A DNA stretch of 64,000 bases, taken from a gamma proteobacterium SCGC AB-629-P17. Its GTDB lineage: Bacteria > Pseudomonadota > Gammaproteobacteria > PS1 > Pseudothioglobaceae. Every line of letters starts with the position of its first letter. Positions within the stretch are counted from its first letter, which is position 1. Positions 19,319 to 47,304 of the stretch are shown here, piece by piece. The position numbers and the translations under genes were made by a program. The notes beneath the pieces are model-generated. The model was given only the letters and a program-made list of their open reading frames with translations, had not been told where the DNA came from and did no database searches. The stretch covers positions 1 to 64,000 of the forward strand of contig KB889802.1 in the NCBI GenBank assembly GCA_000372785.1, in the 5' to 3' direction.

Positions 19319-20119
19319 ATGCATCCTACCGTTAATATTGCAGTTCGAGCTGCCCGTGCAGCTGGTGATGTTGTCCTCAGGTATCACAACCAAATCGATT
19401 TACTGACCATCGAAAATAAGTCAGAAAATGACTTTGTTTCTGAGGTCGATAAAGCGGCTGAAAATGCCATTATAAACGAGATTAAAAAAGCCTTTCCAGA
19501 ACATTCGATTTTAGGGGAAGAGACGGGGGAGATTCTGGGAGATAGTTCTTATCAGTGGGTTATTGACCCTTTAGACGGAACAACAAACTATTTGCATGGC
19601 TTTCCGCAATATGCCATCTCTATCGCCTTATTTGAAAAAAAGATTTTAACCCATGGTGTCGTTTATGACCCTTTTAAGGAGGAACTCTTCACGGCTTCAA
19701 AGGGTGAAGGTGCTTACCTCAATAATGAAAGAATGAGAGTTACCAGTACAAATGGTCTTCAAAACACATTAATTGGCACAGGATTTCCTTTCAGGCATCC
19801 ACAACACCTTGATTGCTACCTAAAAACTTTTAAGGCTATTCACCCCCATGTGTCTGGCATTCGTAGGGCAGGATCTGCTGCACTTGACTTAGCTTACTTA
19901 GCTGCTGGACGTTTGGATGGTTTCTGGGAAATTGGACTTAACTCTTGGGATATAGCTGCTGGAGCTTTATTGGTGAAAGAGGCAGGTGGATTTATTGGAG
20001 ACTTCTCAGGCAGAGACCAGTACTTAGAGACAGGTAATGTTGTCGCCGGAAATGCCGATGTCTACAAAATCTTGCTAAAAACAATACACCCGCACCTAAC
20101 TCAAGAATTGCAACGATAA
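19319..20119 (+). CDS. suhB: inositol-1-monophosphatase family protein SuhB
   Basis: Mg-dependent phosphatase; in E. coli SuhB also joins the rRNA antitermination complex. The 266 residues have the metal sites GEETG, WVIDPLDGTTNYLHGFPQ and NSWDIAAGALLVKEAGG in the expected order, and normal length. The start ATG at 19319 has little Shine-Dalgarno sequence and lies five bases from the divergent trmJ start, so the leader must be very short or transcription must begin within trmJ. Confidence 0.95.
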   Translation: MHPTVNIAVRAARAAGDVVLRYHNQIDLLTIENKSENDFVSEVDKAAENAIINEIKKAFPEHSILGEETGEILGDSSYQWVIDPLDGTTNYLHGFPQYAISIALFEKKILTHGVVYDPFKEELFTASKGEGAYLNNERMRVTSTNGLQNTLIGTGFPFRHPQHLDCYLKTFKAIHPHVSGIRRAGSAALDLAYLAAGRLDGFWEIGLNSWDIAAGALLVKEAGGFIGDFSGRDQYLETGNVVAGNADVYKILLKTIHPHLTQELQR

Positions 20120-20236
20120 AAATTGTTCAGTCAACTAAAGTCTATTTTATGTGGCTATAGATTAATATATTCACCATCACACATCAAACGAAATTTGGAC
20201 ATTTGTACTAAGTTCAAATTAAAATATAATGAATAT

Positions 20237-23200
20237 ATGAAAAAACTCTTTCTGCTCTTACTGCTATCTCTTGGTTTAACTGCTATCTCTTATGCTGGCC
20301 CTTATGACGACTGGCCTGATGATGCTATATGTATGTGGCTTGACATGAAGCCAACACATGCAGGTTATCTAGGGGAAGCTAAAAAAAGAAGTCTAACTTG
20401 CGAGGGTGGTAAAGCTGTTGCAGGTGCAGCTCCAGCAAAAACTACGACTAGTACTAAAAGTACAACTTCTAGTAAGAAAACAACTTCTACTAGTCCTTCG
20501 TCAGTCTGGAAAGACAATGGTGTTTCAGATAACGTTGCGAAGCAACTCTCTAAGGTTGGAGTGAATTCTACTATTAACTATATGGGTGAAACCTATTATT
20601 ACACTATTAATAGCAGCAAAATAAATAATAACATTGATAAAGTAAAACAAGTTTTCAATGACGGATTTAGCCACTTTACATACGTTATTTCTAACACAAA
20701 TAAATTCTATCTTGATAGATGTGTAAAAATTCGAGGCTTTAATGAAGCAAAAGATCAGTGGAATATTATTAAAAGTGATTTTTCAACTTCCTGCCTTGAT
20801 AAAGATTCCATTTCTTCAATGTCTAAGTCCATTAAAAAGCAAATATTAGAAGTCCTTTTAGAAATCCCAGATGCCGTATTTGTTATAAGCTTGAAGTCTG
20901 GATTTGAATTTAAACATTACTTACCAAATGGCATAAACCAGAATATATGGCTCACTGAATTTGAGCAGAAAAAATCTGTACGGGATGGCTTTAATGATCA
21001 ATGGAGATTGATAGCTGAAGATCTAAAGGATATACCTGAGGATAATTTAGTCTTCAATCTTCTTAATGAGCCAGAGTTTGAGAACTTTAAAGGGGGTAAT
21101 GCTCGAAAAACATGGGAAAAATGGACAACAGAGACGGTAGATGTTATTCGAGCTATTTCTCCAGAGAGAACTATCATTATTGAAGGGATTTATAAAGGTC
21201 TTTTTGCAAGACATAATGGTCCCGCAAACGTTATCAGGCCAATTTCAAGAAAAAATATCGTATACGGATTTCACTATTATCCGAATGAAGAATGGGCTAA
21301 ACAAGATTATTATGGCATAAGAGGAAAAGGCGTTCCTATGCCCTCACTCAATAAGTCTAAAAATGATTTTAGACAACTGGTTGATTATTCCAATTCTTAC
21401 AAAGTCCCTGTAGCAGTTACTGAAATAGCAATTACTGGCCCTTGTGAAGGTTATGGTCCTTTACAAGAAGATAATGCCAAATACGCTGAAATGGCTTATG
21501 AGGCATTAGTGCCTAATGGAATCGGCATGACTTTTTGGGGCCTTGAAAGCTTAATGTCTCCTTATCAGCGTATTAAAGGTCGCTGCTACGATCTTTTTGA
21601 CAAAGAATTGATTCCTGATGACATGTTATTTAAAGCACTAAGATTAACACCGAAATTAACGACAGCAACTACGACTAAAATCAATAAAACTGATAAAACA
21701 ACTAAAGTAGCAACATCCGATTTAGAAATTTCTGGTAAATCTGTTGGCCAATTCAACATGAAGAAACTCAGTGAAAACTCCAATCCAAAGCTCGGAGTCT
21801 TTTCTACCATTACCAATTCATTTGATGTAAACCAAGACGGGCATGATGACTTAATAGTTGGCAATACTAATTTGAACTCTGATGATCGAAACCAGCAAAA
21901 CGAATTTGCTAAGCCCGTTATTTTGTTTTGGGATAACAACATTAAAGAATATGTTGTCAATGATGATGTCCAAAAAGCCCTGCCCTTTATGTATTACCCT
22001 AGGAGAATTCATGTCTCAATTAACCCAAAAACCGGGTTGACGCATTTGTTCATTGCTGATACTGGTTTTGACTTATTTAATTATGATTTTTCCAAAGGCA
22101 TAGCTAATCTTCCACCGAATTGCGGCGCACAAAACCATCTGATTACTTATGACCCATCCTCAGGCAAAGCCTCTGAGATTCAGTTGCCAAAATTATATGA
22201 TTACTCTCATGGACTTGCTGCAGCGGATCTCAATGGAGATCAAATAACCGATTATGTATTACTTAATAGCCCTTACATTAAGTTTCCAGCAAAATGTTCA
22301 TTTAATGGTATGGCTTATACAAATGAAAGCTATATTCTTTATTCAAACAAAAACGGCGGCTTTGATAGGGTTGATATTGAAATTAACTACAAGGGTTATT
22401 CAAAAGCACCGACAATAACTTCCGGCATAGCGATTGTTGATGATAACAATGATGCTTTCTTACTAGTGGGTATGGAAGGTTCTGGAAGTGGTATATACGC
22501 ACTCAAGCAAGACTCAAAAGCCTCATTTACTGAAACCAGCAGAGTTAATGCTCCAGTAATTATGAGAGAGGGGGATAATCCGGGTGCATATTCAGAGGTT
22601 CTTTATGCTGATTTAGATTCAGATGGTTCAAAAGAAGTTGTTGCTAGTATTAATACTCAAAGTTGGAAAGGTCGATATATACAACTCCTTGATTTTAGCA
22701 ATGGCGAACTCAGAGATAGGTCTGAGGATGTAGTTCAGTTACCTTCAAATACAATAAAAACAGGTAACGATTGGTGCCATCATTTATTTTTTAATGAAAA
22801 AACAGCCTGGAATCAGCCGATTTTAACTTGTACTCATCTTACTGCACTTTCTAAATCTAAAGGTTATTTCTATACATGGACAAAAAACAAACTACAGTTT
22901 GCAAAAATCAAATCAAAAAACTTAAGCCAATGGGTCAAACGGTTCTATCCAGTAACTATAGATCAGAAAACTGTTTTTTTAGGGCAGGAAATTCATGGTG
23001 AAAGAAATGTTAACGGTTTTTCATTTTATGACTCAATTAAACTTTATTTAATTGAACCTCCACTGAGTGAAGCAGAAGTAGTTGCCACTAAAGAAAAGGA
23101 AGAAGTTGCAGCTAATGTTCAAACTACCGAACTATTAACAAACATTGAAACATCAAATGCTTTTGATGGCTCTTATACATTTACGCTTATTGTACCGCCT

Positions 23201-23476
23201 ATGGATGGGCTTGGATATGGCACTCTAGAAATAAATAAAGGCATAGTAACTATTAGCAAAGATAGTAAAGGTATGGTAGCACCAAAGTATGATAGTTTTG
23301 AGGGTCGAATTGACCAAAATGGAGACATTGTGGCTACTTTTTATTTTAACCCTTGTAACAAATGTGGCTTTGAAGATAAATCAGTCGTGTTTAAAGGAAA
23401 TATCAATAAGAAAAAGCTAAGTGGCATGTACAACGATATTCAAATTTATTTCTATTTATCAAGTAAACAATTTTAG
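20237..23476 (+). CDS. secreted GH5-like glycoside hydrolase with FG-GAP/VCBS-type repeats
   Basis: The frame is open from 20123, but the real start is ATG 20237, which begins a clear signal peptide (MKKLFLLLLLSLGL, cleavage after SYA). The protein has 1079 residues. Parts in order: a short Cys-containing segment (DDAICMWLDMKPTHAGYL); a Thr/Ser/Lys linker; a catalytic domain of about 380 residues; a second linker; a repeat region of about 480 residues; and a C-terminal domain with CNKCGF. The catalytic domain resembles glycoside hydrolase family 5: FNLLNEPEF supplies the acid/base Glu, GFHYYPNEEW the substrate-site His/Tyr, PVAVTEIAI the nucleophile Glu, and MTFWGLES the conserved Trp. The repeats carry calcium-binding D-x-N-x-D-G-like motifs (DVNQDGHDDL, DLNGDQITDY, DLDSDGSKEV). 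The substrate is unknown, perhaps a beta-glucan or mannan. It stands alone, between suhB and yciK. Confidence 0.8.
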   Translation: MKKLFLLLLLSLGLTAISYAGPYDDWPDDAICMWLDMKPTHAGYLGEAKKRSLTCEGGKAVAGAAPAKTTTSTKSTTSSKKTTSTSPSSVWKDNGVSDNVAKQLSKVGVNSTINYMGETYYYTINSSKINNNIDKVKQVFNDGFSHFTYVISNTNKFYLDRCVKIRGFNEAKDQWNIIKSDFSTSCLDKDSISSMSKSIKKQILEVLLEIPDAVFVISLKSGFEFKHYLPNGINQNIWLTEFEQKKSVRDGFNDQWRLIAEDLKDIPEDNLVFNLLNEPEFENFKGGNARKTWEKWTTETVDVIRAISPERTIIIEGIYKGLFARHNGPANVIRPISRKNIVYGFHYYPNEEWAKQDYYGIRGKGVPMPSLNKSKNDFRQLVDYSNSYKVPVAVTEIAITGPCEGYGPLQEDNAKYAEMAYEALVPNGIGMTFWGLESLMSPYQRIKGRCYDLFDKELIPDDMLFKALRLTPKLTTATTTKINKTDKTTKVATSDLEISGKSVGQFNMKKLSENSNPKLGVFSTITNSFDVNQDGHDDLIVGNTNLNSDDRNQQNEFAKPVILFWDNNIKEYVVNDDVQKALPFMYYPRRIHVSINPKTGLTHLFIADTGFDLFNYDFSKGIANLPPNCGAQNHLITYDPSSGKASEIQLPKLYDYSHGLAAADLNGDQITDYVLLNSPYIKFPAKCSFNGMAYTNESYILYSNKNGGFDRVDIEINYKGYSKAPTITSGIAIVDDNNDAFLLVGMEGSGSGIYALKQDSKASFTETSRVNAPVIMREGDNPGAYSEVLYADLDSDGSKEVVASINTQSWKGRYIQLLDFSNGELRDRSEDVVQLPSNTIKTGNDWCHHLFFNEKTAWNQPILTCTHLTALSKSKGYFYTWTKNKLQFAKIKSKNLSQWVKRFYPVTIDQKTVFLGQEIHGERNVNGFSFYDSIKLYLIEPPLSEAEVVATKEKEEVAANVQTTELLTNIETSNAFDGSYTFTLIVPPMDGLGYGTLEINKGIVTISKDSKGMVAPKYDSFEGRIDQNGDIVATFYFNPCNKCGFEDKSVVFKGNINKKKLSGMYNDIQIYFYLSSKQF

Positions 23477-23560
23477 TAATTATCTATTTCAATTAACTAT
23501 ATTCACACTTTGAATGGTACGGGGAGCCTAACACCCCTACATAGTCATTTCCTGAAAGAA

Positions 23561-24313
23561 TTAAGGGTGAAGTAAAGCCAATTGCTTACCATTGTATTTC
23601 GAACTAATAGGCAACATCAAATATACTATTGCTGAGCTCTTGCTTTCCGGTAAAGGGTTTTTAGTTGTGTCTTCTGCAGGGTATGCTGCCCTTCTCATCT
23701 CTGTTCTCATCACTCCAGGATCTAGGGTATTGACTCTAATATTTGTCTTTTCCAGCTCTTCGGAAAGTGTTTTAGCAAAACCTTCAACAGCAAATTTACT
23801 CACTCCATAGGCTCCCCAATAAGCTTTCGCTTCTCTGCCTTGTTCTGCCGACAGAAACAATATTCTTGCATCGTCTGATTTGTTGAGTAGTGGAATCAAA
23901 AACTGTGTCAGCATAAAAGGCCCATTCAGATTGATCTGCAATGTGGAATACCATAATTTAATGTCGTATTGATCAACCGGCATCATCGTACCTAGAATGG
24001 CAGCATTATGAATCAGCCCATCGAGCCTTTCAAATTGATTAAATATGTCGTCTTGAAGTGACTGGTAATTCTCAGGGGTTGCTCCTTCTATATCTAACGG
24101 ATACAGAATTGGCTCTTGAAAGCCTTTTTCAATGACGGCATCATAGGCATACTCCAAAGAGCCTAAGTCTCGACCCAACATGATTACCGTTGCGCCAGCC
24201 TTAGATAAATCCATTGTCATAGCCAAACCAAAACCTCGGTTTGCCCCCGTCACCAATATAACTTTGCCTTTAAGTTCGCCTTCTCTAACTTTATGGCTTG
24301 AAGGGATTATCAT
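23561..24313 (-). CDS. yciK: short-chain dehydrogenase/reductase, YciK-like
   Basis: NAD(P)-dependent oxidoreductase of unknown substrate. The 250 residues have the Rossmann motif VTGANRGFGLAM (TGxxxGxG), HNAAILG (the NAG-like motif), the Ser of LFLSAEQGREAKAYWGAY, the catalytic YGVSK, and NTLDPGVMRTEMR. The pattern of the last motif resembles E. coli YciK. The start ATG overlaps the rmuC stop as ATGA, so it is co-transcribed with rmuC. A short GGGG/CCCC hairpin lies in the 84 bp after the stop. Confidence 0.85.
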   Translation of the reverse strand: MIIPSSHKVREGELKGKVILVTGANRGFGLAMTMDLSKAGATVIMLGRDLGSLEYAYDAVIEKGFQEPILYPLDIEGATPENYQSLQDDIFNQFERLDGLIHNAAILGTMMPVDQYDIKLWYSTLQINLNGPFMLTQFLIPLLNKSDDARILFLSAEQGREAKAYWGAYGVSKFAVEGFAKTLSEELEKTNIRVNTLDPGVMRTEMRRAAYPAEDTTKNPLPESKSSAIVYLMLPISSKYNGKQLALLHP

Positions 24314-35684: not shown

Positions 35685-36008
35685 TTTGGCTCCAGTTTGT
35701 TTTTGACTCACCTGAAATCCTTTATTATATATATATATTCAAATCTTAAGATATGGCCAAACACCAAAAAAACAAGTGCCTTGACCGACTTTTAGCAAAA
35801 ATTCATTAAAATATCTTTTGCTATAAAAAATATGCATCATTTTGCTACAAATATTACAGATATCTATCATTGCAAAGCAAAAACTATTTTACCCAATAAA
35901 TATTTTTATTAGAACTGATTTTAATTAGATAACTCTATATTTAATGTGGTCAAGTATTAACTCCATATAATGATAAAATGTGCCAATTTGGATTCACTAT
36001 TTTCATTC
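35685..36008. other. 324-bp divergent intergenic region between hflK and lptD
   Basis: No gene is visible. It must hold promoters for both the hflK operon (leftward) and the lptD operon (rightward). Features seen: an alternating AT tract near 35723-35740 just upstream of hflK; TATAAT at 35966-35971, a fair -10 box 38 bp before lptD; and a possible envelope-stress-type promoter at 35911-35938. A weakly translated extension of the lptD frame back to 35970 is not conserved. Confidence 0.6.
35911..35938 (+). promoter_or_regulatory. possible sigma-E-type promoter of lptD
   Basis: AGAACTG, then 16 bases, then TCTAT resembles the RpoE consensus GGAACTT-N16-TCTGA with mismatches. In E. coli lptD is indeed under sigma-E control. 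In such AT-rich DNA the match could be chance. Confidence 0.25.
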
Positions 36009-38288
36009 ATGAAAAAACACTTAATTCTATCCATGCTAGCCTTAAGTGCTTTTTCAATCCAGGCTGATGGTGTTAATCTTGCTTGCGCACCATACCAACC
36101 TCTTTGCATTAACTGCCCTGAATTTCAAACACTTTTCCCTGTTGAGGAATTGACCGATGACCCTGAAAGTTTAGACATTGAAGCAGATCAAAGTGAAATA
36201 ATTTCTAATGAAACTTACCATTTCAGTGGCAACGTTGAATTAAAGTCTGACTCTCATTTTCTCGCCGCAGACGATCTAGAAGTTTCTACTTCTGACAACT
36301 CCACACTAGCACAGGGTAATGTAAGGTTTCAGGATAACACTTACCTAATTACAGGGGATTTATTATCCGCAAAAAAAGAGAATGGTGAACTCATAGCGAA
36401 AGCTACCAATGCTAATTATCAAAATTTTTCAGTGGGTCCAGGAGGCGCTAATGGCTACACCGAAACAATTTCCAAAACCCCTACTAGCGTTTTCCTTACA
36501 GATGCAACATACAGTCTATGCCCTATAAATAAAAATGACTGGTTAATTGATGCGGATTCTATCGAACTTAACCTAGAGAGAAATAGAGGTTTTGCTAAAA
36601 ATGCGATCCTCGAGTTTTATGGCCTTCCAATTTTTTATTTACCAAGGTATAGCTGGGTTCTTGAAGGTCGAGGATCAGGCTTTTTGACTCCAAGTTACAA
36701 CAGCTACACTGAGACCTCTCAAACTAAACGTTCATATAGCTTAAGAGTGCCTTACTACTTTAATATTGCACCAGACCGTGACTTGATTCTTGCACTGACT
36801 CATATGACTAGCAGAGGTTTTATTTATGAAGGTAAGTACCGTCAACTAATTGCACCTAGAATAACAGAAGAAAAAGAAGATTCACTCTTTGAGTTAGAAA
36901 CTAGATACCTTTTTGATGACAAAATAACAAATTTAAATCGCTGGCTTATTGACACATCAATAGAATTAGACATATCTGAAAAAACGCATTTGAGTGCACA
37001 ATATTACCGCGTATCTGATGCAAAATATTTTGAAGAAGTGGCTCGCACCAATACTAATGTAAAAACTCTTAAATCTAATCTCGAGCTGAATTATGATAAC
37101 CCTAGTACAAACCTAGAAGCAGCTATTCTAACTGAGGATGAACAGGTTGTTAATGCTGGCACACCAGTCTATACAAGGGCGTTAGAAGGATCTATTTCGA
37201 AAACTTTTAATGCTGATAATAAACTCCCAATTCAAGTTGACGTTGTCAGCACCAAGTTCGACCACGACACACCTGGCAAAGAATCAGGCGTCAGAACCCA
37301 TGCCAACCTTGGCGTTACAAGAATACTTTCTTCAAAGTTCCCAATAATCACAACAAGAGCAAATGTAGACTCAACCTATTATAGGCTTGACAATAGTGAC
37401 AACATCAATCGCACAATTGTCGGAACTGGTGTTGACTTTACTTTCCCTTTTCAAAGCCAAGGTAATTTATATGGTTCACAAGTTAACCATACATTGACAC
37501 CTAAAATTTCTTACAACTATAGAGCAAAAGAGATTCAAGGAAACATTCCAATTTTTGACAGCACTGACAAATATGACGACATTATAACCTTCGGCGATCT
37601 TACTTCAGGAGAAAGGTATACAGGACTTGACAGGATCACCAATGCTAACGACTTTACCCTCAGTATTGAGTCAAGTCAAAGAGACGTAAATGCACTGGAT
37701 GATGATAAAGATCTCTTAAACATGAAAATTGCCCAAAGCTATTACACTGATGACGAAGTAGTCAGTGACACGGCTAATACGAATTACGAAACCAGGAGAT
37801 CATACTCAGATATAGCCGCATCAATCGATGTAGCCATTAGTAATCTTACCCTTGGTACTGCTGTTCAGTTTGACCCAGATCAATCTTCAATCGTTAAAAG
37901 GACAAACAGTTTAAGCTATATCCTCAATCCAAGAAAATTTGTTTCTATGTCTGTGAGTGACAATGCTGTTAAAGAAGATAAGGGTCAAAAGATTGCAAAA
38001 TTTTATGCAGCCTATCCACTGAATGATTCAATGCATCTGTTTGGTGGACTTGACAGGACAACTTCAACTGGTGTCACAAACGCGGAAACTACTGGAATAG
38101 CCTATGAGTCATGTTGTTGGGCGCTTCGTCTAGCACACTTTAAGGATTACAACGGAGCAGGTGGTTACAATTACAGTACTGGCGTTGAGTTAGTGCTAAT
38201 GGGGCTGGGCTCGACTTCATCGCCTTTAAGAGATCGCATAGAAGAAAAAATTCCAGACTACCATGTAAACCTTAGGTACAAACCTTAG
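36009..38288 (+). CDS. lptD: LPS-assembly protein LptD
   Basis: Outer-membrane beta barrel that inserts lipopolysaccharide into the outer leaflet with LptE. The true start is ATG 36009 (MKKHLILSMLALSAFSIQA, signal peptide); the frame extends 13 codons upstream without support. The 759 residues have an N-terminal OstA-like beta-jellyroll (LDIEADQSEIISNETYHFSG), then the barrel with FYGLPIFYLPRYSW and GSGFLTPSYNSY. Cysteines near the N-terminus and a late pair in YESCCWALRL match the disulfide pattern that makes LptD functional. surA follows after 3 bp, the conserved order. Its presence shows that the cell makes LPS. Confidence 0.96.
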   Translation: MKKHLILSMLALSAFSIQADGVNLACAPYQPLCINCPEFQTLFPVEELTDDPESLDIEADQSEIISNETYHFSGNVELKSDSHFLAADDLEVSTSDNSTLAQGNVRFQDNTYLITGDLLSAKKENGELIAKATNANYQNFSVGPGGANGYTETISKTPTSVFLTDATYSLCPINKNDWLIDADSIELNLERNRGFAKNAILEFYGLPIFYLPRYSWVLEGRGSGFLTPSYNSYTETSQTKRSYSLRVPYYFNIAPDRDLILALTHMTSRGFIYEGKYRQLIAPRITEEKEDSLFELETRYLFDDKITNLNRWLIDTSIELDISEKTHLSAQYYRVSDAKYFEEVARTNTNVKTLKSNLELNYDNPSTNLEAAILTEDEQVVNAGTPVYTRALEGSISKTFNADNKLPIQVDVVSTKFDHDTPGKESGVRTHANLGVTRILSSKFPIITTRANVDSTYYRLDNSDNINRTIVGTGVDFTFPFQSQGNLYGSQVNHTLTPKISYNYRAKEIQGNIPIFDSTDKYDDIITFGDLTSGERYTGLDRITNANDFTLSIESSQRDVNALDDDKDLLNMKIAQSYYTDDEVVSDTANTNYETRRSYSDIAASIDVAISNLTLGTAVQFDPDQSSIVKRTNSLSYILNPRKFVSMSVSDNAVKEDKGQKIAKFYAAYPLNDSMHLFGGLDRTTSTGVTNAETTGIAYESCCWALRLAHFKDYNGAGGYNYSTGVELVLMGLGSTSSPLRDRIEEKIPDYHVNLRYKP

Positions 38289-38291
38289 GTA

Positions 38292-39170
38292 ATGAAGAGA
38301 GTCTCGGCTCTTATCCTTCTCTTTCAGCTCGGAGTTTGTTTAGCAGAAAACACCATCATTGCGATAGTCAATGAAGAGGCTATCACTCTTCAATCAATAG
38401 AACAACAACTGAATGACGCTAACTCATTTAATGAAAAAATAGACATTGTAGGGAAACAGATTGAGATAGCACTCCAAATGAGCAAAGTAAGAAAACTTGA
38501 CCTTAACCCTTCCCAAGGAGACGTTAATGGGGCTCTCAATCAATTAGCTATTGATAATAATATTTCTATGGAACAGCTTCAATCCTACCCACAATTTCCA
38601 TCCTTAATCCAACAAATTACTAACAGACTTTCAATTCTTAACTTACAACAACATATTACAAAGGATTTGAATATTGAATTATTTGAAAATGAAATTAATA
38701 ATTGCACATCCAATATTAATGATAAAAATACAAAGCAAATCAGGATAGCCCAAATCATTATTTCTGAAATTGATAACTCGGATGTAATTATTGACAATCA
38801 AGAGAAGGCTGTAAGAAATTTTCTGAAAAAACTCTCAGACCATATTACCAAAGGCGCTTCTTTTGAAGCATTCTCTAAGCTACATTCGCAGCACCCAAGT
38901 TATGCAAATGGTGGCCTTTCAGACTGGATATTTGTTAACAACCCAACTATAGAAATGCTTGATTTACTCGAAGATGGAGAGGTTTCTACGATCTATTCTA
39001 CAAACATGGGGTGGGCAATAGCAATCAAGGTTGACGAGCGCTATATAGATGCTAATCTGGAAAATTGTAAAGAGAAAATTATTTACCAAAAAGTCCAACA
39101 GTTTTATTCTAACTGGCTGCAAGGTCTTAGAGATTCCGCTTATATTGAAATTTTTACTGATAAACTGTAA
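38292..39170 (+). CDS. surA: SurA-like periplasmic chaperone with a single parvulin domain
   Basis: Escorts outer-membrane proteins through the periplasm. The 292 residues start with a signal peptide (cleavage after VCLA), then the SurA N-terminal helical domain (IAIVNEEAITLQSIEQQL, PQFPSLIQQITNRLSILNLQ). One PPIase-like domain follows (IRIAQIIISE, PSYANGGLSDWIF, YSTNMGWAIAIKVDER), and then a C-terminal helix. Canonical SurA has two parvulin domains and about 430 residues, so this is a reduced version. The position right after lptD supports the assignment despite the divergence. rlmB follows 13 bp on. Confidence 0.85.
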   Translation: MKRVSALILLFQLGVCLAENTIIAIVNEEAITLQSIEQQLNDANSFNEKIDIVGKQIEIALQMSKVRKLDLNPSQGDVNGALNQLAIDNNISMEQLQSYPQFPSLIQQITNRLSILNLQQHITKDLNIELFENEINNCTSNINDKNTKQIRIAQIIISEIDNSDVIIDNQEKAVRNFLKKLSDHITKGASFEAFSKLHSQHPSYANGGLSDWIFVNNPTIEMLDLLEDGEVSTIYSTNMGWAIAIKVDERYIDANLENCKEKIIYQKVQQFYSNWLQGLRDSAYIEIFTDKL

Positions 39171-39183
39171 TTATTTTTTTCTA

Positions 39184-39930
39184 ATGTCTAAATCAATACA
39201 TATATACGGTTTTCATAGCATTAAAGCGCAACTAAACTCGAATCCAGAATACATTCTGAATGTTTTTGTTCAAACTGGAAGGAGTGATAGTCGGATGAGT
39301 GAAATAACTTCATTTCTCAACACTCAAAAAATAAACTTTTCGAAAATTGATAAAAACAAGCTTGATCGACTTGCAAAAGGTGAGCCTCACCAGGGTATTG
39401 TTGCAGAAACAATTTTGCCTTCGCTGCCAGGACAAGATGCTCTGATTAGCTTTGTTACTAAACTCTCAAGTAGTCCTCTTATTTTGATGCTAGATTCTAT
39501 TCAAGACCCAAGAAACCTGGGGGCTTGCCTTAGAAGTGCCAACGCCACAGGGGTCGACTGTGTTGTCATCAATAAGGATGGTTCTGCGCCTATAAATGCT
39601 GTTGTTCATAAAACATCAGCTGGAGCAATTAATCAACTTAAAATTTTTCAAGTCACAAATTTAGTCAGAGCCATTAACGCACTTAAAGACAAAAAACTAT
39701 GGGTGATAGGTCTTGACGATAGCGTTTCAACTTCATTATATGATGTCAATCTTATAGACCCAACAGTCATTGTAATGGGTACTGAGGGTAAAGGACTAAG
39801 GCAACTAATAAAGAAAACCTGTGATCAGCTGGCTACAATACCAATGATTGGCAATGTTGAAAGCCTTAACGTTTCCGTTGCAACCGGAATTGCGTTATTT
39901 GAAAGCAGAAGACAGAGACAAAGTAGTTAA
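39184..39930 (+). CDS. rlmB: 23S rRNA (guanosine-2251-2'-O)-methyltransferase RlmB
   Basis: SPOUT/TrmH-family enzyme that 2'-O-methylates G2251 in the ribosomal P loop. I start at ATG 39184 (MSKSIHIYGFHSIKAQL); the open frame upstream lies inside surA. The 248 residues include the substrate-binding L30e-like N-terminus (PHQGIVAE) and the catalytic knot motifs LMLDSIQDPRNLGACLRSA, VHKTSAGAI, VMGTEGKGLRQL and IPMIGNVESLNVSVATGI. In E. coli rlmB follows rnr; here it has moved behind surA. Confidence 0.95.
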   Translation: MSKSIHIYGFHSIKAQLNSNPEYILNVFVQTGRSDSRMSEITSFLNTQKINFSKIDKNKLDRLAKGEPHQGIVAETILPSLPGQDALISFVTKLSSSPLILMLDSIQDPRNLGACLRSANATGVDCVVINKDGSAPINAVVHKTSAGAINQLKIFQVTNLVRAINALKDKKLWVIGLDDSVSTSLYDVNLIDPTVIVMGTEGKGLRQLIKKTCDQLATIPMIGNVESLNVSVATGIALFESRRQRQSS

Positions 39931-39978
39931 TAATTAAAGGAGTTTCTGGTAACATGCTCAGGCTTTAGAAAATAGACA

Positions 39979-40494
39979 ATGGAATTTAATAAGAGTCTTC
40001 CAGACCAAATAAAACTGTTTAACTTTGCTAAAAAAGAAATTAGCTTGTCAGGGATTTATCAGATTTCTGATTTACCTAAAATAAGTGAGATTGCTAGCAA
40101 CAATAAAGACAATGTCAGAGTGGACTTGTCGTTTTATTTAAAAAATAATAAAACGCCTTGTGTTGATGGGATAATTCACTTAGATATTGTATTAGCATGC
40201 CAACGATGCCTTGATGATTTATCTATAGCATTGGAAGTTAATTTTAATTTGGCATTTGTAAGACATAATCAAGACTCTGAAGAATTAGAATCACTTTATG
40301 AGATATATGTAATTGAAGATGAGGAGTTGGCAACACATGATTTAATTTCTGATGAAATCTTGTTATCAATTCCTATGGTGCCAACGCACGATTATGATTG
40401 CATAAAAGAAATTAATGAACAAGAAATAGTTGAGGGAAAATCTGAAAATCCTTTTGCTATACTAAGAAAAATAGCCGATGTAGGCAAGGAGTAA
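39979..40494 (+). CDS. yceD: YceD/DUF177 family protein
   Basis: Member of the DUF177 family that nearly always precedes rpmF; homologues have been linked to 23S rRNA accumulation, but the mechanism is unknown. The 171 residues contain the family core with a cysteine pair (LACQRCLDDL), followed by an acidic stretch (DSEELESLYEIYVIEDEEL), DEILLSIPMVPTH and a C-terminal NPFAIL. The gap to rpmF is 3 bp, so both are in one transcript together with plsX and fabH. Confidence 0.92.
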   Translation: MEFNKSLPDQIKLFNFAKKEISLSGIYQISDLPKISEIASNNKDNVRVDLSFYLKNNKTPCVDGIIHLDIVLACQRCLDDLSIALEVNFNLAFVRHNQDSEELESLYEIYVIEDEELATHDLISDEILLSIPMVPTHDYDCIKEINEQEIVEGKSENPFAILRKIADVGKE

Positions 40495-40497
40495 AAA

Positions 40498-40698
40498 ATG
40501 GCGGTACAAAAAAGTAGAAAAACACCTTCAAAGAGAGGTATGCGTAGGTCACATAATGCATTGAAAAATCCTGCATTATCTGAAGACCAAGAAACAGGTG
40601 AAACTCATTTGAGGCACCACATTACTGCAGATGGCTACTATCGCGGCAAACAGGTTATTAAATCTATTGCCGAAGACATCGAAGAAGTAGAAACCTAA
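40498..40698 (+). CDS. rpmF: 50S ribosomal protein L32
   Basis: Structural protein of the large ribosomal subunit. The 66 residues begin [19 protein letters not shown], the invariant L32 N-terminus, and include the typical [14 protein letters not shown]. The zinc cysteines found in some L32 paralogues are absent, as in E. coli. AGGAG precedes the ATG. plsX starts nine bases after the stop. Confidence 0.98.
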
Positions 40699-40706
40699 AT
40701 AATTTT

Positions 40707-41729
40707 ATGACAATTAAGGTATCAATTGATGCCTCCGGTGGTGACTTCGGATTTCCTGTTACCGTAAAATCCGGAATCAATGCTTTAAGCATCTATAAAG
40801 ACCTTTATCTTTACTTTGTAGGTGATGAAAAAGGTATTCAGAAAGAGCTAAATAAGCACTCAAATTATAAAACTTTCTTAGATCGAATTTCAATTACACA
40901 TGCTTCCGAAGTCATTAGTATGGATGACACACCTTCTACTGCGCTAAGACATAAAAAAGACTCGTCAATGAGAGTAGCAATTGACCTTATTGAAAATGGA
41001 ACTGTAGATGCATGCGTTAGTGCCGGTAATACTGGAGCTTTGATGACAATAGCTCGATTTGTTCTGAAAACAATCGAAGGTGTGAATCGACCTGCAATTA
41101 TGGGAAGCTTTCCAACTCTGAATGGACATACCCATGTCCTTGACTTGGGAGCCAATGTTGACTCAAAACCTGAGACTCTATTGCAATTTGCAATCATGGG
41201 CTCTATTGTGGTTCAGAACACCGAAAACATTCCAAGTCCTACAATCGGTTTATTAAATGTTGGCGTGGAGGAAATGAAAGGTCATAATAAGATACAGGAC
41301 ACTACAGAACTTCTCAAAGACTCTTCACTCAATTATTCAGGCTTTGTTGAGGGTGATGACATATTTAAAGGTGTGGTTGATGTAGTGGTTTGTGATGGCT
41401 TCGAAGGTAATATCGCTCTAAAGGCAAGTGAAGGGGTAGCTAACATGTTTTCACACCTTATCAAAGAATCATTTAACAAAAACCTCTTCACTCAACTGAT
41501 AGCTATTTTTGCAAAACCAGTAATGAATAATTTCAAGTCCAAAGTTGATCCTGCTCAGTACAATGGAGCAAGCCTTCTTGGCCTAAAAGGAGTCGTTGTA
41601 AAAAGTCATGGAAATGCTGACGTTGATTCATATTTTCAAGCAATTAAAGAAGCATACCTAGAAGCCCATGCTAAAATCACGGATGAAATTTCAGCACAGC
41701 TGACACGCGAATTAAAAGAACATAAATAA
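40707..41729 (+). CDS. plsX: phosphate acyltransferase PlsX
   Basis: Converts acyl-ACP to acyl-phosphate, feeding PlsY in phospholipid synthesis; a peripheral membrane protein. The 340 residues start with VSIDASGGDFGFPVTVKSG and contain SMDDTPSTALRHKKDSSM (as the ISMDD variant), SAGNTGALM, GANVDSKPETLLQFA, VCDGFEGNIALKASEG and the late NGASLLGLKGVVVKSHG. All match family blocks. fabH follows after ten bases. Confidence 0.97.
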   Translation: MTIKVSIDASGGDFGFPVTVKSGINALSIYKDLYLYFVGDEKGIQKELNKHSNYKTFLDRISITHASEVISMDDTPSTALRHKKDSSMRVAIDLIENGTVDACVSAGNTGALMTIARFVLKTIEGVNRPAIMGSFPTLNGHTHVLDLGANVDSKPETLLQFAIMGSIVVQNTENIPSPTIGLLNVGVEEMKGHNKIQDTTELLKDSSLNYSGFVEGDDIFKGVVDVVVCDGFEGNIALKASEGVANMFSHLIKESFNKNLFTQLIAIFAKPVMNNFKSKVDPAQYNGASLLGLKGVVVKSHGNADVDSYFQAIKEAYLEAHAKITDEISAQLTRELKEHK

Positions 41730-41739
41730 GAATTAATCC

Positions 41740-42684
41740 ATGAAAAAATTTGCAAGAATTGTTGGCACTGGTAGCTATCTACCTCCTAGGATAATAACCA
41801 ATTCTGAACTAGAAAAGTCACTTGACACTACTGACGAGTGGATAATAAGCAGAACAGGTATCAAAGAAAGAAGAATTGTTGAAGATCAAAATACTTGTGA
41901 TCTTGCTCTTGAAGCCAGTATAAATGCACTTGAAATGGCTGAACTTAATGCACCTGAAATCGATTTAATTATTCTTGCAACAACAACTCCAGATAAAATT
42001 TTTCCTGCAACAGCAACAACACTTCAAGATCGTATTGGTGCTTCATGTCCTGCATTTGACATTCAGGCAGTTTGTGCTGGCTTTGTTTTTGCCTTAACAA
42101 CTGCGCAGCAATATATAGAAAATGGAGTTGCTGAAAATATATTGGTTGTTGGTAGTGAAACAATGTCAAAAATTGTAGACTGGAACGATCGCTCAACTGC
42201 TATCCTTTTTGGGGATGGTGCTGGTGCCGTTGTAGTTAGTAAGGATAATACAACTGGCATAAAGCATGCAAAGCTATGTAGTGATGGTAAATATTTGTCA
42301 TCACTTCATGTCAATAATAACGGAATTAACGAAACTGGAATCATTGAAATGATGGGTAATGAAGTTTATAGAATAGCCGTCAATCGACTCTCAAATCTTG
42401 CGGAAGAAACACTCAAAGATTGCAATATGACTTCAGATGATCTCGCATGGATGGTTCCACATCAAGCCAACATTCGTATTATTAGTGCTGTTGCAAAAAG
42501 AATCAAGCTACCTATGAGTAAGGTGATACTGACTATAGAGAGACATGGAAACACTTCTGCCGCCTCAATTCCTTTGGCTCTCGATGTCGCAGTACGTGAT
42601 GATCGTATTAAAAAAGGTGATAACCTTCTTTTTGAAGGCATTGGTGGTGGATTTAGCTGGGGCAGCCTTCTTGTTGAGTTCTAG
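41740..42684 (+). CDS. fabH: 3-oxoacyl-ACP synthase III FabH
   Basis: Starts fatty-acid synthesis by condensing acetyl-CoA with malonyl-ACP. The 314 residues contain the catalytic Cys in FDIQAVCAGFVFAL, His in WMVPHQANIRI and Asn in ERHGNTSAASIPLAL, together with WIISRTGIKERRI and the terminal GGGFSWGSLLVEF. The genes that usually follow (fabD, fabG, acpP) are absent here. Instead the convergent ispA ends four bases away. Confidence 0.97.
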   Translation: MKKFARIVGTGSYLPPRIITNSELEKSLDTTDEWIISRTGIKERRIVEDQNTCDLALEASINALEMAELNAPEIDLIILATTTPDKIFPATATTLQDRIGASCPAFDIQAVCAGFVFALTTAQQYIENGVAENILVVGSETMSKIVDWNDRSTAILFGDGAGAVVVSKDNTTGIKHAKLCSDGKYLSSLHVNNNGINETGIIEMMGNEVYRIAVNRLSNLAEETLKDCNMTSDDLAWMVPHQANIRIISAVAKRIKLPMSKVILTIERHGNTSAASIPLALDVAVRDDRIKKGDNLLFEGIGGGFSWGSLLVEF

Positions 42685-42688
42685 TCCG

Positions 42689-43600
42689 CTAGAAATCTCG
42701 CTGCATCAATTTTTCTGTCAATCTTCTTAAAGGTTTCTCATTTACACTTAGACTAGATATCTCATCTATAGCTTTTTTATAAAGACCCTGATAGACTTTG
42801 ACAGACTCATCTAAACCTAATATAGCTGGGTAAGTTGGCTTATCACTGACTAAATCAGAATTTTGACGCTTTCCCAAAACTGCCTCAGTACTCGTTAGAT
42901 CAAGCACATCATCTTGAATCTGATAAGCCAGTCCAATATTATTTGAATAAGAGTTCAGGATATCTATATCTTTTGAATCAATGTTAGTATTAGAAAGTGC
43001 ACCAAATTTAACTGCACAACTTATCAGAGAACCAGTTTTCTTTTGATGCATATTATTCAAAAATTCAATATCTACTTTTTTAGAAACAACAGAGAGATCA
43101 ATTGATTGCCCATCAGCCATTTCATATGCTGAGATTGCTAATAGTTTTAATAATTCAACTCGAATAGCAGGTTGAATTGATTCATCTCTTGACAAAACCT
43201 CAAAAGCCAAAGCTTGTATACCATCTCCCGCAAGAATAGCCTGAGCCTCTCCAAAAGTTTTATGAGATGAAGGCTGATTATGCCTCATATCATCATTATC
43301 CATCGCAGGTAAATCATCATGGATCAACGAATAAATATGAATAAGTTCAATAGCACACGCACAAGCATCGACTTTAATAAGATCAATGTCATACAAACTC
43401 GCAGTTGTGTAGGTTAATATCGGCCTGAAGCGTTTACCACCAGCCAAAACGCTATAACTCATCACATTTTTCAATTCACTTTCAAAGTGACCTTTAGGAC
43501 AAATCGAACTTAGGTGGTTTTTTAGTTGAGTATTAACTCGTTTTCTATAAATATCAAAGATCTTCAAAGGGTTTTTCTTCGCTGTAGTTATCTTTTTCAC
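42689..43600 (-). CDS. ispA: polyprenyl diphosphate synthase IspA (farnesyl/geranyl type)
   Basis: Builds C10-C15 (possibly longer) prenyl diphosphates for quinones and undecaprenyl carriers. The 303 residues have GGKRFRPIL, the first Asp-rich motif DDLPAMDNDDMRHN, QAILAGDGIQALAFE, and the second motif QIQDDVLD, followed by the family's GK-x5-D-x-x-x-K block (GKRQNSDLVSDKPTYP). The GTG at 43600 lies 47 bp inside xseB. A TTG at 43567 would shorten the overlap, so the exact start is uncertain. The xseB-ispA order, usually followed by dxs, is typical; dxs is not here. Confidence 0.92.
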   Translation of the reverse strand: MKKITTAKKNPLKIFDIYRKRVNTQLKNHLSSICPKGHFESELKNVMSYSVLAGGKRFRPILTYTTASLYDIDLIKVDACACAIELIHIYSLIHDDLPAMDNDDMRHNQPSSHKTFGEAQAILAGDGIQALAFEVLSRDESIQPAIRVELLKLLAISAYEMADGQSIDLSVVSKKVDIEFLNNMHQKKTGSLISCAVKFGALSNTNIDSKDIDILNSYSNNIGLAYQIQDDVLDLTSTEAVLGKRQNSDLVSDKPTYPAILGLDESVKVYQGLYKKAIDEISSLSVNEKPLRRLTEKLMQRDF

Positions 43601-43778
43601 TTAGTATTTTGACACGTTGTTCAGCGTCTGTGAGCGCACTGTGGCATTTCCGGTGAAGCTTGACACCTTTTTCAAAATACTTGAGAGAATCTTCCAAGCT
43701 TAGGTCGCCAGATTCCATTTTATTAATTATCACTTCAAGCTCAGCCAAGCATTTATTAAAATCAAATTTTTTACCCAT
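43554..43778 (-). CDS. xseB: exodeoxyribonuclease VII small subunit
   Basis: Small subunit of the ExoVII nuclease, which degrades single-stranded DNA. The 74 residues are the typical helical hairpin: FDFNKCLAELEVIINKMESG, LSLEDSLKYFEKGVKL and CHSALTDAEQRVKIL. It shares one base with the upstream short-chain dehydrogenase stop and overlaps ispA by up to 47 bp. The large subunit gene xseA is not in the window. Confidence 0.94.
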   Translation of the reverse strand: MGKKFDFNKCLAELEVIINKMESGDLSLEDSLKYFEKGVKLHRKCHSALTDAEQRVKILSEKDNYSEEKPFEDL

Positions 43779-44629
43779 CAGTCTTTATCTCCCTTGTCCG
43801 CCCTGCTTAGAATATTATCCATCCATGAACTAGGTAGTATTCTACACAGAATTCCAAATAATTTTGTAGGAAAGGTGACTCGATAATGATTCTTTGGTAC
43901 TTTGGATTCCAGAGCATGTAAGGCACATCGCAAAACCGACTCTGGAGCTAATGTAAATTGAGCATTTTTATCTGAATTTAGGCGTTCAATCATAGTCTTA
44001 TATTCTCTTTTATAGTCACTATTTGATGGATCAACATTTTCTTTGAAAGCCAAAAAAGCGTTTTGTCTAAATTTGGACTCAATTGGTCCAGGCTGAATCA
44101 GAGATAGTTTTATTTTGGTTTGAATTAATTCCAGTCTTAAGGTATCCACCAAACCTTCAATGGCAAACTTAGAGGCTACATAAGGTCCCCTAAATGGCAT
44201 CGCAACAAAACCCAAAACGGAACTAATATAAACAACTCGGCCTATATTTCTTTCTTTCATTGAAGGCAGCACTAGATTAGTAAGTTCATGCCAACCAAAC
44301 ACATTTACTTGAAATTGTTTTTCTAGTGCCTCTCGTGATATATCTTCTAGGGCGCCAGCCTGTCCATAAGCGCCGTTATTGATTAATGCATAAAGACTAT
44401 CAGTTTTCTGGTAGAGTGCAGAAATGGCAGCCTTTATAGAGCACGATGAAGCTAAATCTAACAAAAAAGCGTCAAAACCAAGCTCTTTTAATTTTGTTAT
44501 GTCTTTTTCTTTTCTGGCAGTTGCAAAAACACGATAGCCAGCTGCTCGTAATCCATGAGCAAGACAAAATCCTATACCACTTGAACAGCCAGTAATTAGA
44601 ACTGTTTTTACTGTTGAAGTCTCGTCCAA
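43778..44629 (-). CDS. short-chain dehydrogenase/reductase
   Basis: Classical SDR oxidoreductase, substrate unknown. The 283 residues show TGCSSGIGFCLA (TGxxxGxG), NNGAYG (NNAG variant), the serine in VVYISSVLG, YVASKFAIEGL with catalytic Tyr/Lys, and QPGPIESKF. It resembles YbbO-type proteins with a C-terminal extension (NHYRVTFPTKLFGIL) annotated as NADP-dependent aldehyde reductases or lipid-related SDRs. The start is TTG 44629, overlapping the end of pcnB by 22 bp; no better start fits. It is co-oriented with pcnB and xseB. Confidence 0.85.
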   Translation of the reverse strand: MDETSTVKTVLITGCSSGIGFCLAHGLRAAGYRVFATARKEKDITKLKELGFDAFLLDLASSCSIKAAISALYQKTDSLYALINNGAYGQAGALEDISREALEKQFQVNVFGWHELTNLVLPSMKERNIGRVVYISSVLGFVAMPFRGPYVASKFAIEGLVDTLRLELIQTKIKLSLIQPGPIESKFRQNAFLAFKENVDPSNSDYKREYKTMIERLNSDKNAQFTLAPESVLRCALHALESKVPKNHYRVTFPTKLFGILCRILPSSWMDNILSRADKGDKD

Positions 44630-45747
44630 TACTTGGCCCTCTCTTCTAATTCGGGATTGATACTTTCTGAGCGTAAAACCAAAAAATCATAGGCCATTCG
44701 AAAGCGTGGATGCACAATTAATTCTTTTGCCTTTTTTATACTGCAATTCTCTAGTTGGTATTGCATTAGCCAGATATCTTTAACACGAGCGGAAATCCAT
44801 CTTGGCATTAAAACCTTTTTAGTTTGTTTACTTATAACATCTTCTGATGCTTGTGCCATTAACAAAAAACGGGGTTTTTTCTTTTTATTAAGTTCATTAA
44901 AGCGTTTGTTTTGTGCGCCCCATAAAAAAACCGCGAACAGGAATGCTGGTGTTACAGGCTTACCATTTTTGATGCGCTTTGATGTGTTCAATAGAGTTTT
45001 ATTTATAAATGAAGTTTCTGCAGTTTGAGGAAAAAGATAATTCAATAGTCCACATTTTACAAGTTGCTCAAAAACCTCATAAGCGTTCTCGTTATGAAAC
45101 AATTTAATACATTCATCATAAAGCCTAGCGGCCGGTATATTAGCTAGTAAATAGGCTTGATTAGAGATAGATTTTGAGATTATTGGATCTATAGTTGCCC
45201 CTAGCTTAACTGAAAATCTTATCGCTCTAATCATCCTTACAGGGTCTTCCTTAAAACGCTCCACTGGGTTTCCAATCATTCTAATTTTAGAATTATTGAG
45301 CGCCTCAAGACCATCAACATAATCAATGACTTGAGAATTTTGAATATCATAATAAAGTGCATTGACACTAAAATCTCGACGAAAGACATCCTCTTTGAGA
45401 GTGCCATACAGATTATCTCTAACAATAACACCATTACCAGCTGTCTTTACTTTTCCTGAACGAAAAGTCGCAACTTCAATATATTTTCTAGATGAAAACA
45501 TGATGTGAACCAATCGAAAGCGCCTTCCAATAATTCTAGAACGTTTAAAATTTTTATGAACCTGTTCCGGAGTAGCGCTGGTAGCGATATCAAAGTCTTT
45601 GGGTTTGTGGCCCAGCAATAAATCTCGAATACAGCCACCTACTAAATAAGCCTCATGACCAGCTTTATTTAAGGTCTTTATAACCTTTTTTGCATCTTTA
45701 TCTATTAATTTTTTGTCGAAGTGAATGGTTTGACGTATTGGCTTCAT
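44608..45747 (-). CDS. pcnB: poly(A) polymerase I
   Basis: Adds poly(A) tails to RNA 3' ends, promoting decay. ATG 45747 overlaps the queF stop (ATGA) and is preferred to an open frame nine codons upstream. The 379 residues contain the nucleotidyltransferase motif [23 protein letters not shown] with its DxD. The block [11 protein letters not shown] distinguishes poly(A) polymerases from CCA-adding enzymes. [12 protein letters not shown] and [11 protein letters not shown] follow. The C-terminal region is shorter than the 465-residue E. coli enzyme. folK, the frequent neighbour, is absent. Confidence 0.92.
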
Positions 45748-46130
45748 AAACTCACTACATCTCTTGGTGACCAATTTTTTTGTCTATGTTCAGACTCAAC
45801 AGTGGTGTATATTCCGCCTCTGACATTAAATATCGACTTCAAGCGCATAAAACGAGGATCAAGTACAGCAACCAAATCATCTAAAATTTGGTTGGTAACA
45901 GCCTCATGAAAAGCGCCTTCATTACGAAAAGACCAGATATAGTTTTTAAGAGCCTTAAGCTCAACACATCGTTTGTCAGCGATGTACTCTAAATGTAGAG
46001 TTGCAAAATCTGGTTGACCTGTTTTTGGGCACAGACAAGTAAATTCAGGAATATCAATGCGGATAACAAAATCCCTCTCAATATTTGGATTATCAAAAAC
46101 CTCTAAAATCTTACTCGGAGAACTAGGCAT
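45744..46130 (-). CDS. queF: NADPH-dependent 7-cyano-7-deazaguanine reductase QueF (short type)
   Basis: Reduces preQ0 to preQ1 in queuosine synthesis for tRNA wobble G. I start at ATG 46130 ([15 protein letters not shown]), which overlaps the lptF stop by eight bases; the 13 upstream codons lie in lptF. The 128-residue length is that of unimodular QueF. The catalytic cysteine is in [14 protein letters not shown], the substrate-binding Glu/His are in [17 protein letters not shown], and [10 protein letters not shown] is the NADPH-site motif. Confidence 0.93.
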
Positions 46131-47304
46131 GACTTTTCTCTTTTTTATTAAAAATGGATATTTTATCAAGATAGTTAGATATTTTCCGTTGTCTAAACTG
46201 ATAAAGAAATAATAACAATGCTAGCATTAAAAGATGCACCCCCCAAAGCCCTATTGTGGAATCGTTTTGTCCAAGTTCTATGGCACTTTTAGCTACCAAT
46301 AATCCATTATAGTAAAGCATAAATACAATAACACCAATCAAGAGATTAACACCCTTACCTCCTCTAGGTGAGACTTTTCCAAGAAAAACACCTATTATAG
46401 AAAGTATCAAAACAGTGATTGGTTGAGATAGCCGCCATTGTAACTCGGCGTTAGCATAGCGACCTCCCTCTTTAATTAAGTCAAGGGTGCTTTTGCCTTC
46501 AATTTTTGTATAAACAGCTACCGAATTTTTCAATTCACCTGAAACAATCTCTAAATCATACAAATCAAAATTTAGAATGTTTATGTTTTCATTACTAGGG
46601 ATTCCCTGGTATCTAACACCATCTTTTAAGCGAAGATATATGCTATCACTTTCAGAGTCGATATATTTTGTCGCCTCTGAAGCTAGAACAATAACTGGGT
46701 TTTCTTTATCAAAAGCATAGATAAATATTTCTTCCATATTTTGCTCTCCAGCAGTATCTAGAGATTTCGATTCAGAGGCATAAAAGACAATGTCACCTTG
46801 CTTAAATACTTCAAATTCACCTTCAGTAATAAAGGAAAACTCTGAGGCATTGTTGGTTTCCTCCTCCATAATATTTTTTTGTTGATTTGCCCATGGAACC
46901 GCATAGATTGTCAGGAAAAAAATCAAAATAAAAGACAAAAGCACTAAAGGCTGAATAAAAACAATAAAATGTTTATCATTCAAACCCACCGAATTCATTA
47001 CAATAGCTTCAGAATTTTTGTATAACTGAGATATTGTTAAAATAACAGCTAGGAAGAGTGACAATGACAGCACTAATGATAAGTCTCTGATCATATTAAA
47101 GCTCACCAAAGGCATTAGTTCTTGAATGGGAATACCTCGTTCAACGCTTTCTTGGACCATCAAAACGAATTGATTACCGAATAAAACTAGCCCGATAATG
47201 AAGACTATTGCAAAAAATATGATAACTAAATTGCGCCTTATATATCTTGCAATTCTGCTGTTTTGATATTTGAAAATACTAAGAAGCTTCGTTTGCATAA
47301 TCAA
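46123..47304 (-). CDS. lptF: LPS export permease LptF
   Basis: Inner-membrane permease of the LptB2FG transporter, which extracts LPS for transfer to LptC/LptA/LptD. The 393 residues have three membrane helices at the N-terminus and three at the C-terminus, separated by a ~160-residue periplasmic jellyroll domain. Family features are the N-terminal [38 protein letters not shown] with the conserved small-residue helix, and the [28 protein letters not shown] block near the end. lptG, normally the next gene, is missing; queF follows instead. LptF rather than LptG is chosen from overall pattern and could be reversed. Confidence 0.85.

Follow-up and report, generated by a model that had tools for sequence, protein, structure and literature searches.

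The reading frame studied here occupies positions 20237–23476 on the forward strand of the window, by which we mean the whole 64,000-nucleotide stretch that was analyzed. It forms a single frame of 1,079 aa from the ATG at 20237 to the stop at 23476, confirming the coordinates that the first-pass annotation had given for a large secreted GH5-like protein; translation is unlikely to begin at the in-frame TTG at 20123. From the N terminus, the protein comprises a putative signal peptide, a two-Cys module, a GH5 barrel, a divergent FG-GAP region and a C-terminal β-barrel. A search of the 1,079-aa sequence against NCBIfam returned no matches. The gene lies between htpG, trmJ and suhB upstream and yciK, rmuC and an acyltransferase gene downstream and, as had been noted, is a lone insert among core genes. 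The host genome (1.42 Mb in 70 contigs, 77% complete) and with it the window belong to the genus Ca. Thioglobus, on the arctic96BD-19 side of the SUP05 clade. Finished genomes are 1,714,148 bases for Ca. Thioglobus singularis PS1 (PMC4616169) and 1,689,404 bases for Ca. Thioglobus sp. NP1 (PMC6424205), and SUP05/arctic96BD-19 cells have been described as sulfur oxidizers and mixotrophs (PMC4616169, PMC6424205).

The GH5 catalytic domain (aa 90–470; 20504–21646, +) was delimited from Pfam, alignment and structural modeling. The Pfam Cellulase/GH5 profile PF00150 matched aa 243–436 (1.1e-17; 64.9 bits against a curated cut-off of 23.5), the first third of the profile having no match in the protein. 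By sequence, the closest PDB chains were GH5 endoglucanases, matched weakly (best 8e-9, two-row profile). E278 in an NEP motif (21068–21070, +), the proposed acid/base, and E396 in VTEI (21422–21424, +), the proposed nucleophile, were invariant across 11 aligned GH5 rows, as were H346 and Y348. A model of the catalytic region, built from 11 distant GH5 rows, was a β/α-barrel with a pTM of 0.69, a mean pLDDT of just 58.5 and poor modeling of the first ~100 residues. Its top structural matches in the PDB were all GH5 enzymes, including FnCel5A (3nco; Z 22.8, r.m.s.d. 3.1 across 276 residues), Thermotoga maritima Cel5A (Z 22.3) and CcsZ (Z 21.0). In the model, E278 is placed at the end of strand 4 (the NEP strand, model residues 185–191) and E396 within strand 7 (model residues 306–311). 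This is the placement of the catalytic glutamates in clan GH-A. Structure prediction, proposed earlier as a check for a TIM barrel with two glutamates, therefore bore out the assignment of a GH5-like domain, together with the above-threshold PF00150 match and the invariance of both residues. The protein shares the barrel, the NEP acid/base, the nucleophile Glu and the H-x-Y motif with T. maritima Cel5A and Fervidobacterium FnCel5A (3amc and 3nco), but is 17–22% identical to them in structure alignments, carries an extra, poorly modeled N-terminal stretch and is fused to tag A, the FG-GAP region and the C-barrel.

The regions around the catalytic domain were resolved to different degrees. A signal peptide at aa 1–20 (20237–20296, +), as claimed earlier, is probable on the strength of sequence judgment and a predicted helix. 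The N-terminal segment with paired cysteines had been suspected to be a separate module. It was modeled by AlphaFold2 as a helical hairpin with a pLDDT of >90 and recurs in the genus, to which genome searches showed it to be almost confined; we call it tag A (aa 21–58; 20297–20410, +; C32 and C55; pattern W..D..IC.W....E..R.L.C). The FG-GAP region has approximate boundaries at aa 505–955 (21749–23101, +). Both FG-GAP_3 PF13517 (1.7e-7; 32.2 bits, cut-off 26.9) and FG-GAP PF01839 (1.6e-5; 25.1 bits, cut-off 22.1) exceeded their thresholds in the protein, and VCBS gave no match in the Pfam search. Of the reported ~480 residues of D-x-N-x-D-G motifs, a D-rich region of ~450 residues is present but with fewer loops than suggested, three clean (aa 530, 664 and 792) and one degenerate (aa 735). 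In the full-length AlphaFold2 model this region had a pLDDT mostly <50 and no propeller was resolved; GH5 and the propeller are poorly resolved in that model because homologs are lacking. The extra C-terminal domain (aa 971–1079; 23147–23473, +) was, as expected, found: it is predicted to be a β-barrel (pLDDT mostly 77–95) and is also present on other tagged proteins. Among its best structural matches are the barrels at the C termini of hemophilin, TbpB and FHbp, at Z values of about 6–9 that lie in the chance range (8.4 for hemophilin, also within that range; Foldseek E of 0.34 for FHbp). Those barrels belong to T11SS cargo (PMC12282271). T11SS (Slam) cargo proteins similarly pair a C-terminal eight-stranded barrel with an N-terminal effector portion that varies, but have no sequence match to the C-barrel, and the Z level is also reached by chance; the modeled likeness is a lead only.

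The gene interrupts a conserved junction. suhB, encoding inositol-1-monophosphatase (19319–20119, +), and yciK, encoding an SDR protein (23561–24313, −), are the left and right chromosomal flanks, and the two genes adjoin in 24 of the 25 relatives that have yciK; in the window, the insertion has changed the final codons of yciK. The insert opens with a repeat in which CACACATCAAACGAAATTTGGAC lies at 20178, and its other end comes just after TATTCACACTTTGAATGGTACGGGG at 23500. A 5-bp TAAAG occurs at both junctions and may be due to chance, and the exact insertion edges are approximate. In the one relative where the two do not adjoin (G021; L133, G021:C130), other genes lie between suhB and yciK, one of them GIY-YIG nuclease-like, so that insertions may favor this place.

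Presence and absence of the enzyme across relatives, another check proposed in the first pass, showed that it is rare in the lineage. GH5 was found in 2 of 83 family genomes, the host genome and AG-319-K19 (G018), and no relative was detected among 398 Pseudomonadota genomes at 1e-6. The two GH5 domains are identical at 341 of 380 aa (90%), with a dN of 0.060 and a dS of 0.339; the resulting dN/dS of 0.18 between the two genomes indicates that the domain is under purifying selection. An origin in phages or plasmids was rejected, as no matches were found in phages, plasmids or viral contigs. Contamination or a chimera as the source of the gene was likewise ruled out by the 90% identical GH5 in a congener and by the genus-wide occurrence of the repeat described below.

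The G018 protein differs from that of the window in its surroundings: it begins with a different module, tag B (CPDGSEPVKSISADGTYFVYNCGG), lacks the FG-GAP region and carries a C-barrel 36% identical to that of the window protein. Tag B occurs in 18 of 83 family genomes, 17 of which belong to Ca. Thioglobus, and among 229 class genomes, a sample without other congeners, both tags were found solely in the host genome. Tags or the C-barrel are also present on a PF14099 polysaccharide lyase, an alginate lyase, many FG-GAP proteins, and calycin-like and SNase proteins. One calycin-like body is headed by tag A or by tag B, depending on the genome. Because this body and the GH5 domain each occur under different tags, the tags behave as exchangeable N-terminal modules. 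The tags and the C-barrel shuffle within the genus and are almost unseen beyond it. Tag A is found both at the N terminus of longer proteins and as short secreted proteins of ~75–120 aa, some of them tandem (L036 in NP1, L040 in G025, L101 in G024 and L022 in G015). The tag-A PF14099 lyase, which has the same C-barrel, lies on the same contig but outside the window, 46 kb from GH5 (L032:6387-7928; G000:C46:69386); the corresponding place in NP1 (L036), between pnp and an MFS gene, is taken by two short tag-A genes. A viral match to tag A covered just 12 residues and was set aside. The earlier view that extracellular polysaccharide cleavage would be unexpected for this lineage is supported in that GH5 is rare (2 of 83), but other tagged polysaccharide-active enzymes in the genus mean that the window gene is no lone oddity.

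The sequences at the ends of the insert belong to one repeat. In full it is ~100 bp long: a half A (CGCATATATATTCAGACTTTGAAGGTACGGGGAG) and a half B (CCCTCCCTCACACATCAAACGAAATTTGGACTTT) stand on either side of a variable middle, and half B, with a core of ~30 bp, is often followed by TATAAT, a promoter-like sequence, and an ATG. Half B precedes the GH5 gene (20150–20203, +), with CACACATCAAACGAAATTTGGAC at 20178–20200 without mismatch, and half A (TATTCACACTTTGAATGGTACGGGG; 23500–23524, +) follows it with one mismatch to the searched pattern; for each, 0 occurrences were expected by chance in the window. The insert therefore terminates in half A without a second B core, bounds that are unlike those of an array unit. 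TATAAT also lies directly before the GH5 ATG, and a possible σ70-type promoter, TGGACA-N18-TAAAAT, is present at 20196–20225 (+), although promoter-like matches in the region are not above chance. CACACATCAAACGAAATTTGGAC has 27 copies in the host genome and is present in 27 of 29 genus genomes, with 0 for a reversed-pattern control; across 369 class genomes it was found in the host genome, the only other matches being two single ones with 3 mismatches that are not credible. Half A was recognizable by a strict pattern in 32 of 148 copies. No copies were found in viral contigs, and an Rfam search of the repeat returned tRNA and sub-threshold noise but no family. Half B lies upstream of 19 of 35 tag-B genes and 2 of 30 tag-A genes, and the cultured strains PS1 and NP1 alike carry the tags and the repeat.

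Many copies form arrays. In the loci fetched by matches to the tags or the repeat, the set that the following statistics describe, repeat copies never fell inside ORFs (0 of 120, against 1,023 of 1,320 random points), and their orientation was uniform in all 20 loci holding at least three copies. Successive repeats were separated by a median of 1,227 bp, with exactly one ORF in 57 of 84 intervals. Free ends of blocks homologous between genomes fell within a 100-bp zone at the core in 33% of cases, compared to 3.2% expected; on the left, blocks ended at the core start (31 distinct cores), and on the right at the distal edge of the core that came next (28 distinct cores). Blocks with B on both sides numbered just seven, some of them reciprocal. 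NP1 and G018 share sequence from tRNA-Met to the first repeat and have different genes beyond it, and full A+B repeats are found at junctions. This common array site, beside coaE and tRNA-Met (L099 and L034), has wholly different gene content in the two genomes.

Such arrays resemble integrons and chromosomal gene-cassette arrays, in which uniformly oriented repeats separate mostly single, often unrelated genes and gene content varies at a shared tRNA site; unlike those systems, the Thioglobus repeat is genus-confined and often followed by promoter-like sequence. An IntI-type integrase (TIGR02249) exceeded its cut-off in 0 of 29 genus genomes, 11 of which are at least 90% complete, and attC R''/R' motif pairs (RYYYAAC + GTTRRRY) were found in 0 of 32 full repeats and 0 of 134 instances. 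Given these failed tests, integron identity was rejected; we regard the arrays as integron-like in behavior and do not claim integron status. Dif-module (pdif) XerCD arrays also have short repeats flanking single genes, and Xer-like recombinases are present, but the best match to a 28-bp XerC/XerD dif site had 9 mismatches, compared to 8 in a shuffled control, and dif modules were rejected. No recombinase was tied to the repeat. In many Thioglobus genomes, tRNA-linked islands that encode numerous small secreted proteins begin with a phage-type tyrosine integrase ending in ..HKSSLINRVMGGI (L190:6381-7394, L218:7422-8432, L221, L222, L217 and L039). This integrase is directly followed once by a full A+B repeat (L190, on G000:C1), and was dropped as the candidate recombinase because most islands that it heads lack the repeat. 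We found no description of such a cassette system in this clade in the open-access literature.

Taken together, the window gene probably encodes a secreted or surface-held GH5 β-glycanase that was gained as a single-gene mobile unit. The protein would be exported by Sec and would hydrolyze a β-1,4-linked glycan with retention, E396 acting as nucleophile and E278 as acid/base. By analogy, the FG-GAP region would bind calcium; together with the C-barrel it may hold the substrate or position the enzyme, and tag A, with a C32–C55 disulfide, could be a docking or anchoring module common to exoproteins of the genus. That the domain is instead degenerate and inactive, and now a binding module, is highly improbable: the PDB sequence matches are weak and the start of the PF00150 profile is unmatched, but the catalytic residues are intact and dN/dS is low. 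Taken alone, the enzyme belongs to a known family, in which it is divergent and its host unusual. It is also rather unlikely that, like the GH5 enzyme CcsZ of a cellulose synthesis system, it trims or modifies the exopolysaccharide of the cell itself instead of serving to feed on external glycans. With Foldseek, the GH5 model matched CcsZ of Clostridioides difficile best, yet in the VIA ranking CcsZ stands amid many endoglucanases, and the scores fail to separate it from degradative GH5 enzymes. Furthermore, the flanks are core genes with no adjoining synthase gene, and the gene is missing from nearly every relative, which would not be expected of a core exopolysaccharide function.

How the gene arrived is a separate matter. 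We tentatively suggest a cassette system of Ca. Thioglobus itself, neither integron nor dif-module, in which the ~30-bp core bounds mobile single-gene units that build arrays of variable content at sites linked to tRNA genes and elsewhere; in this streamlined lineage of the open ocean, the system would spread and recombine modular, tagged exoenzymes. Genes would move and recombine as units with boundaries within the genus-specific core, by site-specific or homologous recombination with some enzyme. The suggestion rests on comparative patterns. Possibly, the repeat is instead only a conserved promoter or regulatory element in front of co-regulated genes, the arrays are ordinary flexible islands that homologous recombination rearranges, and GH5 was laterally acquired with its promoter. 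The gene after B is on the same strand in 90 of 120 copies, at a median distance of 52 bp, a TATAAT box often directly precedes the ATG, and the B core is short with no recombinase found with it, all of which favors that reading. A promoter does not readily explain why the next gene is antisense in the other 30 copies while orientation stays uniform within each array, why homologous blocks also end beyond the next B core, or why there is a half A behind the window gene and complete A+B repeats at junctions. A modular repertoire of secreted glycan-active enzymes, subject to gain and loss, would open polymeric carbon to part of the clade and account for how it is acquired; the repeat, if a recombination site, defines a cassette system outside integrons. 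The main interest of the locus lies in genus-specific modular exoenzymes and in a cassette-like repeat that apparently delivers some of them. Within the host genome, repeat positions on one contig are mirrored in inverted order (L187 and L188; G000:C57:1-10500 and 36000-47000), which suggests amplification or an assembly chimera.
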